Assembly: GCF_021991835.1 (NCBI RefSeq)
Contig: NZ_JAHDAU010000007.1
Span: 124,001-188,000 of the forward strand
Reading direction: 5' to 3'
Length of the DNA stretch: 64,000 bases
Source: Polaribacter sargassicola
Lineage (GTDB): Bacteria; Bacteroidota; Bacteroidia; Flavobacteriales; Flavobacteriaceae
Shown here one piece after another: positions 58,853-61,714 of this stretch. The notes below the pieces were generated by a model, which had not been told where the DNA came from, searched no databases, and was given only the letters and a program-made list of their open reading frames with translations. The first letter of the stretch is position 1, and every line of letters begins with the position of its first letter. Position numbers and translations under genes: made by a program.

Positions 58853-58907
58853 AATACAATATACTATTGTTGTTTAAATAAAATTAAACATTTTTATAAT
58901 AATAATT

Positions 58908-58953
58908 AAAAACTCATCAGAATCTATTAATTTAGATTTTGATGAGTTTTTTT
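58908..58953 (+). terminator. long-stem terminator of folE
   Basis: AACTCATCA and TGATGAGTT pair, continue through AATCTA/TAGATT after a one-base mismatch on each side, and end in a 6-base loop with a T run beyond. This makes a stem of 15 pairs. Confidence 0.92.
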
Positions 58954-59012
58954 ATGGATAAAATTTTTAAATTTATCATTAATTTATATTGTTGATAAAT
59001 AGATGCTTAATC

Positions 59013-59029: not shown

Positions 59030-59093
59030 TAAAATAGAATTTTAATTAATTTTTTTTTATTAAAAGCAACCTTTTTAAAAGTTGTGTAGTCTA

Positions 59094-59101
59094 TATATTT
59101 G
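59094..59101 (+). promoter_or_regulatory. -7 box of the sigma-factor operon
   Basis: TATATTTG matches TAnnTTTG. It lies downstream of the in-frame TTG at 59082 and 28 bp upstream of the TTG at 59130, so it fixes the start at 59130. Confidence 0.52.
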
Positions 59102-59129: not shown

Positions 59130-59690
59130 TTGAAAATTATAAAATTGCATAACAAAGAAAAATCGCTCATAAAAAAAGCGATTGATAATAATAGAGAAGC
59201 GCAACAACAATTGTTTGAGCAATTTTCTCCTAAAATGTTGGGTGTTTGTAGGCAGTATGTAAAAGATTTACATCATGCAGAAGATTTATTATTACAAGGC
59301 TTTTTAAAAGTTTTTACCAACTTACATAAGTTTAAACATGAAGGTAGTTTTGAAGGATGGATTCGTAGAATTATGGTAAATACGTGTATTTCTTATTTAC
59401 GAAAAAAAAATATAGTTGATCTGTCTGATGAAGATTTTGTTTTTAATGATGCAGCTACAGAAAGTTTAGAAAATACAACTGTAGAAGACATTCAATTATT
59501 AATAGATCAATTACCAGAAGGTTATAAAATGGTATTTAATTTATTTGCAATAGAAGGTTACAAACACTCAGAAATTGCTTTACAATTAGGTATTTCAGAA
59601 AGTACATCAAAATCGCAATTATTTAAAGCACGTAAATTATTGCAACAGAATTATATTAAAACGAATAAGTTTATTAATGAAGACAAATAA
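59130..59690 (+). CDS. ECF-type RNA polymerase sigma-70 factor
   Basis: A 186-residue sigma factor with regions 2 and 4 only. Region 2 includes AQQQLFEQFSPKMLGVCRQY, VKDLHHAEDLLLQGFLKVF and FEGWIRRIMVNTCISYLRKK; region 4 has LPEGYKMVFNLFAIEGYKHSEIALQLGISE. The reading frame has no ATG near the conserved N-terminus; the TTG at 59130 begins LKIIKLHNKEKSLIKKAI, which matches homologues I recall, so TTG is the likely start codon. It overlaps the probable anti-sigma gene by 14 bp. An outer-membrane protein gene follows, suggesting a dedicated cell-surface regulatory circuit. Confidence 0.9.
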   Translation: MKIIKLHNKEKSLIKKAIDNNREAQQQLFEQFSPKMLGVCRQYVKDLHHAEDLLLQGFLKVFTNLHKFKHEGSFEGWIRRIMVNTCISYLRKKNIVDLSDEDFVFNDAATESLENTTVEDIQLLIDQLPEGYKMVFNLFAIEGYKHSEIALQLGISESTSKSQLFKARKLLQQNYIKTNKFINEDK

Positions 59691-60486
59691 TTTAGATAAA
59701 AATATAAAAGAAAAGTTAGCAAATAGAACTTTTCAACCTTCAGCATCTGCTTGGGAACGTTTGTCTGTTCAGTTAGATGATCAACCCCAACAAAAGAAAA
59801 AAGGGTGGTTTTTTTATATAGGCGCAGCAGCAAGTATTTTACTTTTAATTAGTGTTGGTTACATGGTTTTTAATAAAAATGAAAAAGTAAAACCATTAGA
59901 AATTATTGTAGAAACCGTAATTGATACGCTTACAATTAATAAAAAATTAGATCAATTTATAAATGAAATTCCAGTTAAGAAAGCACTAGTTAAAAATAAT
60001 GAAATAGAAACGGAGAAACTTATAAAACCAAGTGTTATATCATCAAAAGAACTAAAAAACAATCAAAATAAAAAAATCAATATTGAAAAAAAAGAAGAAA
60101 AAATTATTATAGCAAAAGTTGATGAAAATGAATCTAAAAACGATAAAGATTCGTCAATGAGTAATGAAATAAAATTTACAAAAGAAATTTTACAACAGAA
60201 CCCAAATAGTAGCATAAAAATAAATAGTGATGATTTATTGTATGCTGTTACACATACTCCTAAAGAAGTAAAAGCTTATTATGCTAAATACAATGTAAGT
60301 AGAGAAGATGTTTTAAAGACGATTAAAAGTGAGCTCAAAAAATCGAATTTAAAAATCAACCCAAACACTATTTTAGCAGAAGTAGAGCGCACAATTGATG
60401 ATGAAGCTTTTCAGAATAACTTTATAAAAACCTTAAAAATTAAAGTGTCTGATATTGCTACTGCCATTGCAAGTAGAAATGATTAA
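59677..60486 (+). CDS. single-pass membrane protein, probable anti-sigma factor
   Basis: A 269-residue protein. The cytoplasmic N-terminus (1-44) contains NRTFQPSASAWERLSVQLDD, a short motif typical of Bacteroidetes proteins encoded after ECF sigma genes. One membrane helix follows (about 46-67, FFYIGAAASILLLISVGYMVF). The rest is extracytoplasmic and Lys- and Glu-rich up to about 160, then has a helical end (PKEVKAYYAKYNVSREDVLKTI). It lacks a recognisable zinc anti-sigma or FecR domain. The 14-bp overlap with the sigma gene indicates coupled, near-equal expression. Anti-sigma function is inferred. Confidence 0.78.
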   Translation: MKTNNLDKNIKEKLANRTFQPSASAWERLSVQLDDQPQQKKKGWFFYIGAAASILLLISVGYMVFNKNEKVKPLEIIVETVIDTLTINKKLDQFINEIPVKKALVKNNEIETEKLIKPSVISSKELKNNQNKKINIEKKEEKIIIAKVDENESKNDKDSSMSNEIKFTKEILQQNPNSSIKINSDDLLYAVTHTPKEVKAYYAKYNVSREDVLKTIKSELKKSNLKINPNTILAEVERTIDDEAFQNNFIKTLKIKVSDIATAIASRND

Positions 60487-60541
60487 AAGTTAAAAATCAT
60501 TTCTAAAAAAACAAGAATAATAAAATTTTAAAATATTAAAG

Positions 60542-61666
60542 ATGAAAAGAATACTACTAATTTTAGTGTTGTTTAGCACAACTATTGCCTTATCTCAAGA
60601 GAAAAAAACGTTTGAAAAAGAAGTAATTAAAATTTCTAAAAGAATAGAGATTATTACAAAACAACAAAAAGATTCTCTAAAAGAAAAAGTGATAGATATT
60701 GATAAAAGACTTGAAAAAGGAGAAATTACTGCAGAAACATCTACAGGTTTAAAAAAGGAAGTTGCTGCATATCATGCAAGAAGAATAGAGGCGTTAGTTA
60801 GTGAACAAGAACGTTTATTGCAATTGTTAGTACAAGATAAAACAAACGGAAAGATCGCAAGTTCAGACGAAGGAGAATTAGGTGAAGATGATAATGTGTT
60901 TACAATTGGTAATACAACGTTTCGTTTTGATTTTGATGCAAAAGACGGAAAAGATGGTGAGGACGGAGCAGATGGATATGATAATAGGAGAGCAGAAAGA
61001 GACCATAAAGTAATAAGAAATAGAAAGACTACATCTCAATTTGTATTTGTAATGGGAGTAAATAATGTTTTAAATAGTAATAATTTAAACTCTTTAAATG
61101 ATTCTGAGTATAAGTTTTGGCAATCTCATTTTTATGAATTGGGTTGGACATGGAAAACACGTTTAAGTAATAAGCCATCTCAATTATATGTAAAATACGG
61201 AATGTCTTTTCTTTGGAATAATTTACGTTTAAAAGGGAATAGAATTCATGTTAAAAACGGAGAATTTACCGAAATAGAAACATTTTCTAACGATTTATCA
61301 GAAAGTAGATTACGTCATGTACAAATGAATTTTCCTGTGCATTTAGAGTGGGATTTATCTAAAAACAGAGTGTATTCAGATGGAGATGTTTCTGATAGAA
61401 CAAATAGATCTGTTCGTTTAGGTGTTGGTGGTTTTTTAGGTTTTAAACTAGGAACTAGACAATATTTAGAATATAAAGATACAGATAGAGTAGATGTGGA
61501 AGAAGTTCAGTTTGATAATTTTAATATGAATACTATTAATTACGGTGTAAGTGCATATTTAGGTTATAGATCTACAAGTTTTTACGTAAAGTACGATTTA
61601 AATTCTTTGTTTAAAAATACAGAAACAAGAAACATTTCTTTAGGAGTTCGTTTAGATTTAGATTAA
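60542..61666 (+). CDS. outer-membrane beta-barrel protein of the sigma operon, unknown function
   Basis: A 374-residue exported protein that I do not recognise by name. The signal peptide (MKRILLILVLFSTTIALSQ) precedes a charged coiled coil (about 20-105). A short acidic collagen-like tract DAKDGKDGEDGADGYDN lies near 140. The C-terminal 210 residues alternate strand and turn (YVKYGMSFLWNNLRLKGN, SVRLGVGGFLGFKLGTRQYL, VSAYLGYRSTSFYVKYDL) and end in an aromatic-poor GVRLDLD strand, which fits a small porin-like barrel. It lies 55 bp after the anti-sigma gene and ends in a strong terminator, so the three genes form one operon. Confidence 0.8.
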   Translation: MKRILLILVLFSTTIALSQEKKTFEKEVIKISKRIEIITKQQKDSLKEKVIDIDKRLEKGEITAETSTGLKKEVAAYHARRIEALVSEQERLLQLLVQDKTNGKIASSDEGELGEDDNVFTIGNTTFRFDFDAKDGKDGEDGADGYDNRRAERDHKVIRNRKTTSQFVFVMGVNNVLNSNNLNSLNDSEYKFWQSHFYELGWTWKTRLSNKPSQLYVKYGMSFLWNNLRLKGNRIHVKNGEFTEIETFSNDLSESRLRHVQMNFPVHLEWDLSKNRVYSDGDVSDRTNRSVRLGVGGFLGFKLGTRQYLEYKDTDRVDVEEVQFDNFNMNTINYGVSAYLGYRSTSFYVKYDLNSLFKNTETRNISLGVRLDLD

Positions 61667-61670
61667 AAAA

Positions 61671-61714
61671 TTAACATTTAACATTAAAATATAATGTTAA
61701 ATGTCAATTTTTTG
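61671..61714 (+). terminator. terminator of the sigma-factor operon
   Basis: ACATTTAACATT pairs exactly with AATGTTAAATGT around a 7-base loop, followed by CAATTTTTT, 5 bp after the stop. Confidence 0.85.

Follow-up and report, generated by a model that had tools for sequence, protein, structure and literature searches.

In FecI-FecR-FecA signalling an outer-membrane barrel, an inner-membrane anti-sigma factor and an extracytoplasmic function (ECF) sigma factor are combined; the barrel is a large TonB-dependent transporter and the system has FecR domains. The means by which Bacteroidota monitor their outer membrane are still poorly understood, and the Dma proteins of Bacteroides provide a case in which one chain spans from the sigma factor to the outer membrane. 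As described in PMC13088901, these proteins are single chains made up of an anti-sigma domain, a transmembrane helix, a disordered tether and a C-terminal barrel, with an ECF21 sigma factor encoded next to them; Dma2 chiefly affects polysaccharide loci and its own operon, loss of Dma raises vesiculation, and Dma1 of B. thetaiotaomicron works through NigD1. We have analysed three co-directional genes, called the trio here, at positions 59130-61666 of a 64,000-nucleotide stretch (the window) of the 3.70 Mb genome of Polaribacter sargassicola (contig NZ_JAHDAU010000007.1, positions 124,001 to 188,000; the genome is G000 in our set). They encode an ECF sigma factor, a single-pass membrane protein and an outer-membrane barrel protein. 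We propose that the trio is a counterpart of the Dma/Das switch in two pieces that are not covalently joined, under its own control, a reading to which we assign a probability of about 0.58.

The trio resembles the Dma/Das system in its N-terminal anti-sigma domain, single transmembrane helix and long disordered tether, all predicted in the trio, and in having an outer-membrane barrel in the circuit, an adjoining sigma gene and predicted control of its own operon. It differs in that the barrel is a separate gene (20 of 20 regions) with its own signal peptide, judged by eye, and a helical hairpin, while the anti-sigma protein ends in a helical tail, with no barrel in the same polypeptide. Since a separate barrel fails the definition of a Dma protein, we class the trio as working like that system and not as a member of it. 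Compared with the ECF21 sigma factor of Dma/Das, the trio sigma factor is adjacent to its anti-sigma protein and falls in a clade with the sigma factors of fused pairs, in which the anti-sigma and barrel-like parts form one protein. The B. thetaiotaomicron proteins were compared by description, and the sequence homology given below is to fused pairs found in this analysis. One such pair (L229) lies in the window's own genome, which thus holds both systems; it has the same sigma and anti-sigma-domain families as the trio but only two genes. FecI-FecR-FecA shares with the trio the barrel, the inner-membrane anti-sigma factor and the ECF sigma factor; neither a TonB-dependent transporter nor FecR domains were found in the trio. 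THC0290_1774/1773 of Flavobacterium psychrophilum, compared by description from PMC9723704, is likewise a flavobacterial ECF pair, found among genes whose promoters have a CGT -10 box, but it is listed as two genes, and these SM6 promoters also serve genes of the type IX secretion system (T9SS). The original prediction, made from the letters of the window, was that no named system has this make-up; that claim is not supported, as Dma/Das is known and the trio's sigma factor and anti-sigma domain are akin to pairs of that layout. A literature search lacking most subscription journals found no paper on the trio itself, so that 'undescribed' is unproven.

Gene layout and inheritance of the trio

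The features of the locus are collected in Table 1. The three genes had been predicted to form one operon with an overlap of the first two and a shared terminator, and all of this was borne out. Terminator hairpins lie on both sides of the unit, and RNA folding found none in the interval between genes 2 and 3; the hairpin after gene 3 is AT-rich and had been missed by a GC-rich scan. The sigma and membrane-protein genes overlap by 14 nt, and the identical overlap occurs in 59 of the 75 loci, among 80 in the first locus sets, that hold all three genes.

Table 1. Features of the trio locus (positions in the window)
Feature	Position	Strand	Basis
folE terminator hairpin, upstream border of the unit	58908..58953	+	RNA fold of 58880-58960: -24.2 kcal/mol, z -6.9
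Predicted own ECF promoter: GCAACC 59066-59071, N17, GTCT 59089-59092, ATA	59066..59095	+	Conservation; alignment of 30
ECF sigma factor, 186 aa, TTG start	59130..59690	+	Pfam Sigma70_r2 and Sigma70_r4_2, TIGR02937
Single-pass membrane protein, candidate anti-sigma, 269 aa	59677..60486	+	N-terminal homology to fused Dma-like proteins; structure model
Predicted cytoplasmic anti-sigma domain, residues 1-36, K-x-KL-x5-PSxxAW motif	59677..59784	+	Alignment, model
Transmembrane helix, residues 42-65, KKK just before	59800..59871	+	Model
Disordered periplasmic tether, residues 98-167	59968..60177	+	pLDDT <50
Helical periplasmic tail, conserved, residues 184-267, ending ..RN	60226..60477	+	Model helices, alignment
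Outer-membrane barrel protein, 374 aa	60542..61666	+	Structure model; Foldseek matches
Predicted periplasmic helical hairpin, residues 24-101 (helices 24-58, 64-101)	60611..60844	+	Model
Acidic collagen-like tract, residues 135-145, not conserved	60944..60976	+	1/28 and 1/41 aligned sequences
Beta-barrel, residues 163-373, read as eight strands	61028..61660	+	Strand elements of model
Operon terminator hairpin	61664..61714	+	-17.3 kcal/mol, z -5.0, 0/200 shuffles equal it

A match to the barrel was found in 178 of 249 Flavobacteriaceae genomes. The anti-sigma profile, searched separately, gave some match in 221 of the 249, many of them to paralogues. Tables of 150 matches listed for each protein had 137 genomes in common; among these matches the barrel gene lies downstream of the anti-sigma gene, on the same strand and within 900 nt, in 136 of the 137 genomes, the single exception having the genes on two contigs, and the count leaves out 13 genomes that were in the anti-sigma table alone and 11 that were in the barrel table alone. 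Failure of the barrel to be co-conserved had been set beforehand as grounds for giving up the prediction; the barrel is co-conserved. The order sigma, anti-sigma, barrel was present in all 20 regions selected by their barrel, three of them from other families, so the gene order can be traced to other families of the class. Among 20 weaker barrel loci of other families the trio is clear in 14, weak in one (L253, whose sigma factor falls outside the trio/fused clade) and absent in five.

Of the 71 genomes that lack a barrel match we examined 20, largely the ones scoring higher with the anti-sigma profile, and found no intact split anti-sigma gene without a barrel. In 18 of them the best anti-sigma match lies in an open frame as long as the fused proteins (490-559 aa), and the nine of these that were read further all have a sigma gene directly upstream. 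The other two are G083, with a trio-type sigma factor (322 bits) and an anti-sigma gene cut by a contig end, and G020, with a weak match only, in a 386-aa frame. Frames of ~200-390 aa with weak anti-sigma matches in barrel-less genomes were also considered; none of the 11 fetched adjoins a trio-type sigma factor or a barrel match, and the sigma factors beside them score 57-135 bits, against 164-321 for trio sigma factors.

The closest named relatives at the locus are from Polaribacter, with 70-73% identity of the barrel in the first matches. The trio is flanked by the same two genes in 14 of 17 family loci that were fetched, a polyprenyl synthetase gene upstream and dnaG downstream (by eye), and other neighbours recur in 13, 13 and 11 of the 17. 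A mobile or recently acquired unit is unlikely given these kept flanking genes. The trio is a widespread three-gene circuit that is, by all appearances, vertically inherited. In the window it is preceded by folE and followed by ald; within 6 kb of the trio, ald occurs in 26 of 51 Polaribacter/Tenacibaculum loci and folE in the window only. The window is also alone among these 51 loci in its folE/hisS neighbours, which therefore gave no rate control.

The sigma factor is the only trio member in the window with database families (Pfam and NCBIfam): Sigma70_r2 (5.6e-15), Sigma70_r4_2 (2.3e-16) and TIGR02937 (4.4e-29). With regions 2 and 4 only (PF04542 and PF08281, both above cut-off) it is an ECF sigma-70 factor. 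At the aligned sigma start the nearest start codon is TTG in 45 of 48 Polaribacter/Tenacibaculum loci and in 11 of 17 other family loci; in other families the start is ATG in 14 of 17. The TTG start at 59130 is supported by this conservation and by the promoter, the -10 element of which ends 38 nt before it. Such a start could perhaps serve to keep the sigma factor scarce.

Kinship with fused Dma-like pairs

A 75-column profile of the anti-sigma N-terminus, built from 24 trio proteins and the fused protein of L229, gives matches in 48 of the 148 genomes sampled across the phylum. The near-full-length matches listed are of two sizes, ~205-300 aa (split) and ~400-640 aa (fused), often within one genome. 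Each of the 20 fused genes retrieved is immediately preceded by a sigma gene that scores 130-184 bits against the trio sigma profile. In a profile comparison the anti-sigma domain and transmembrane helix of trio and fused proteins match with 97.8% probability (8.6e-13). The earlier claim that the membrane protein bears an N-terminal motif facing the sigma factor is supported. It had further been said that this protein has no known anti-sigma domain. This is true for Pfam and NCBIfam, in which it has no convincing family (scans of 32 membrane proteins gave scattered weak matches, e.g. DUF3379 in 3), but the domain is homologous to the anti-sigma domains of the Dma layout.

The sigma factors agree with this picture. 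In a tree of 61 sequences (31 trio, 20 fused and 10 other, L253 being counted among the others), rooted at the midpoint and with a program warning of long branches among the others, the trio sigmas, the fused-pair sigmas and two other sigmas of the window's genome form one clade (support 100/98). Within it 28 of the 31 trio sigmas form one group (93/89), the sister of which is a set of four fused-pair sigmas (99/93). As for the barrels, trio barrels of different families match one another by profile (100%, 6.6e-40), and PF13568 is touched by both kinds, in 13 of 15 trio barrels of other families and 6 of 14 fused proteins. On the strength of these sequence comparisons, the predicted trio circuit is of the same sigma/anti-sigma family as the fused pairs in another arrangement, kinship of the barrels being unproven.

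A proposed two-piece switch and the possible coupling of its parts

In the mechanism that we propose, the ECF sigma factor would transcribe its own operon from an AACC-N17-GTCT promoter, and the product of gene 2 would bind it and hold it at the inner membrane by the cytoplasmic N-terminal domain. The disordered tether would carry the helical tail through the periplasm, and the product of gene 3 is placed by models and sequence as a small outer-membrane barrel with a helical hairpin hanging in the periplasm. The tail may then meet the hairpin or the barrel without a covalent link, so that the state or amount of the barrel would set whether the sigma factor is held or released; freed sigma factor would lead to more of all three proteins, closing the loop. 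The signal would be a condition of the outer membrane. We favour the direction in which a folded barrel keeps the sigma factor off and loss or distortion of the barrel turns it on.

Two periplasmic modules that went unmentioned in the original prediction are conserved: a C-terminal stretch of ~85 residues in the gene 2 product and the helical hairpin encoded by gene 3; profiles of tail and hairpin each match 17 of 17 family loci. Among 32 aligned membrane proteins, R17 and W26 of the anti-sigma domain, A51 and A52 of the transmembrane helix and L187 and L233 of the tail are invariant, while P21, S22 and L33 of the domain and R267 and N268 of the tail are kept in at least 90%. The modelled helices of the anti-sigma domain span residues 5-15 and 23-35, and the KKK ahead of the transmembrane helix is consistent with an inside N-terminus. 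Zinc-binding (ZAS) anti-sigma factors have an HxxxCxxC motif; the window's membrane protein (P0002) contains no cysteine at all, and a ZAS reading was rejected for this reason. In one locus (L175:8660-8884; G317:C27:120557-120865) a single anti-sigma protein carries two tandem N-terminal anti-sigma motifs.

The model of the barrel protein (pLDDT 76.9) shows two long helices and, after a low-confidence linker at residues 110-143, a region (163-373) that contains eleven strand elements. Foldseek matches in the PDB are outer-membrane barrels, with OmpX first (3.3e-5) and NspA, OmpW and PagP, but also larger barrels, among those that follow; TM-scores are low, 0.14-0.28 by query for the first 13 and at most 0.54 by target. 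Pfam gave scattered weak matches for 28 barrels, e.g. OMP_b-brl_2 in 2. The acidic collagen-like tract that had been pointed out is indeed present in the window's barrel, but it is carried by this copy alone, and it is thus a variable linker that stands outside the design; as a sensor it was rejected. Some barrels are enlarged. L163:6600-8192 encodes one with an extra N-terminal domain of ~150 aa before the hairpin, without a Pfam match, and open frames of 538-550 aa occur in four further genomes of the same genus, g128 (G313, G382, G440 and G456), the extra domain having been read in L163 only; it is possible that this domain is a periplasmic sensor.

Evolutionary rates were compared over 95 family loci, from 115 with all domains after near-copies were dropped, by partial rank correlation of pairwise distances, with the remaining three domains controlled for in each case (bootstrap 5-95% in brackets). 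The highest value was that of tail and barrel, 0.40 (0.30-0.47), followed by hairpin and barrel, 0.38, sigma factor and anti-sigma domain, 0.37 (0.29-0.46), tail and hairpin, 0.25 (0.15-0.37), and tail and anti-sigma domain, which share a chain, 0.24 (0.15-0.31); the lowest was anti-sigma domain and barrel, 0.07. In 96.5% of 200 bootstraps the rates of the tail were closer to the barrel protein than to the rest of its own chain. Among 47 Polaribacter/Tenacibaculum loci the values were 0.56 for sigma factor and anti-sigma domain, 0.41 (0.18-0.57) for tail and hairpin, 0.28 for tail and barrel, 0.17 for tail and anti-sigma domain and 0.14 for hairpin and barrel. With ald as a control (25 loci) tail and hairpin stay at 0.40 (0.11-0.62) and tail and ald are at -0.07. 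The pattern fits two putative working modules on either side of the inner membrane and is no proof of contact. The earlier suggestion that the barrel acts through the membrane protein thus gains indirect support, from the rate correlations and from the layout of the Dma proteins.

Several observations weigh against the two-piece switch. The correlations in rate are of modest size and phylogeny confounds them, and the strongest periplasmic pair differs between the 95- and 47-locus sets. The only neighbour-gene control, ald, has wide intervals and itself reaches 0.48 with the barrel, so that plain phylogeny alone extends that far. The model of the membrane protein is poor (mean pLDDT 61.5, pTM 0.28). 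Outside Flavobacteriaceae the tail profile has no match and the hairpin profile matches weakly, in three loci of the same order; any contact there would need other parts. The barrels of the fused proteins are deduced from size, C-termini and Pfam (PF13568 and PF13505, each in 6 of 14 at E 0.01), and homology between trio and fused barrels went undetected by hhalign (0.5%, 3% and 12%). The trio need therefore not be a split Dma by descent, and simple fission of a Dma gene is unsupported.

A more specific form of the proposal is tentative, and we consider it possible at best: with essentially one target, its own operon, and a dissociable tail-hairpin contact, the sigma factor would be part of a stand-alone gauge, counting or inspecting a single outer-membrane protein and restoring it, that evolved in parallel with covalent Dma-type proteins and lies beside them in the same genome. 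The two-chain version makes the coupling step separable, since each part (barrel, hairpin, tail, anti-sigma domain) can be deleted by itself, and the conserved promoter is a ready reporter.

The strongest competitor, which we nevertheless regard as unlikely, is an ordinary sigma/anti-sigma pair whose signal is read by the tail alone, the barrel being an envelope-strengthening product without a part in signalling. It would suit the promoter, under which the barrel is the chief output in the window's genome, and the effector-like second barrel gene, shorter than the first and following it, in four loci of one other family, f8 (four-gene sets with second barrels at L245:4032-4847, L247:4000-4812, L249:2642-3460 and L257:3100-3915; L249 is absent from the tree). 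In Bacteroides, too, the genes of the dma2 operon are dispensable for the phenotype studied in PMC13088901. An ordinary pair does not, however, lead one to expect that the tail tracks the barrel protein in rate above the rest of its own chain, that a split anti-sigma gene is not found intact without a barrel in the 20 barrel-less genomes, or that the fused relatives hold both parts in one chain.

Promoter, regulon and remaining alternatives

All 47 Polaribacter/Tenacibaculum loci carry the AACC-N17-GTCT pattern no more than 180 nt from the sigma start, as do 15 of 17 other family loci, and each of the two exceptions is off by one base (by eye); random 180-mers of the same loci have it in 4 of 1820 and 2 of 656 cases, respectively. 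In other families it is present in 1 of 16 loci (control 1 of 611), where CATCT or TGTCT at equal spacing is often seen by eye. Within 160 nt before the sigma gene it is found in none of 20 fused pairs of other genomes, of which one (L270) has AACT-N17-GTCT.

In the window's genome the strict pattern has one exact match, the operon itself thus being the apparent main output; with up to one mismatch the total is 11+6, against 6+4 in the control. When a loose pattern was counted in 12 genomes, G118 and G198 exceeded their control and the other 10 fell short of it. A promoter model from 30 sequences was run over 20 genomes, 18 of them with the trio; 8 of these 18 had supplied their promoter to the model, so that their match is built in. 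The own promoter ranks first in 16 of the 18 (not in G108 or G410, and barely in G444) and leads in 8 of the 10 whose promoter was outside the model. It scores 33 bits in the window's genome, where the next site has 18.4, and 33 against 14 in a congener (G131); the best E-values in the two trio-less genomes were 0.06 and 0.54. The common core of the regulon would so be the operon itself.

These data bear on the alternative, improbable in our view, that the trio is one member of a broader envelope or type IX secretion regulon, like that of the CGT-box SM6 promoters of F. psychrophilum, which in PMC9723704 cover one ECF sigma/anti-sigma pair together with T9SS genes. Among the 20 second-best sites retrieved, 9 stand ahead of genes of envelope type (by eye) in some genera, 8 are intragenic and 3 have nothing clear behind them, and the two genomes with the loose pattern above control would also be in line with such a regulon. 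Against it stand the gap in score to the next-best sites, the loose pattern below control in most genomes, and second sites that mostly precede unlike genes by genus, although two kinds of gene may recur (L208/L212 and L214/L220). A broad regulon in the trio's own genome and a conserved second target were both rejected on these grounds. The nine sites before membrane- or envelope-like genes (L208, L209, L210, L211, L212, L214, L220, L221 and L227; by eye) lie ~13-57 nt upstream of them.

An RseA-like assembly alarm, in which unassembled periplasmic barrel binds the tail and frees the sigma factor, so that failed barrel insertion is measured, is a similarly improbable reading. Barrel and anti-sigma protein are made together from one promoter predicted to be served by the sigma factor, and the periplasmic tail is conserved, as such an alarm would have it, but the conserved hairpin of the barrel would be superfluous. 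Surface signalling of the FecI/FecR type, to which the consecutive genes for a sigma factor, a single-pass anti-sigma protein and an outer-membrane barrel might point, is very improbable from the family scans, as no FecR family was found for P0002 or listed for its aligned relatives, the barrel is small and no TonB-dependent transporter, and the trio/fused clade excludes those sigma factors of the window's genome whose neighbours are FecR-like proteins (by eye).

The fused pair of the window's genome

The fused gene of L229 is located at G000:C111 near 283877, with its sigma gene directly upstream (tblastn), and encodes 452 aa with weak matches to PF13505 and PF13568 at 0.0011, below the cut-off. 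Its sigma gene (L229:955-1494; G000:C111 near 283331-283870) has no ATG, GTG or TTG near the aligned start, where the codon pair ATC-AAA is present both here and in the congener's L266, suggesting that this sigma factor may use a rare start codon. Just before the pair lies a small lipoprotein-like gene without a Pfam match (L229:546-950), conceivably related to the NigD1 of B. thetaiotaomicron, and similar gene ends precede several other fused pairs (by eye).

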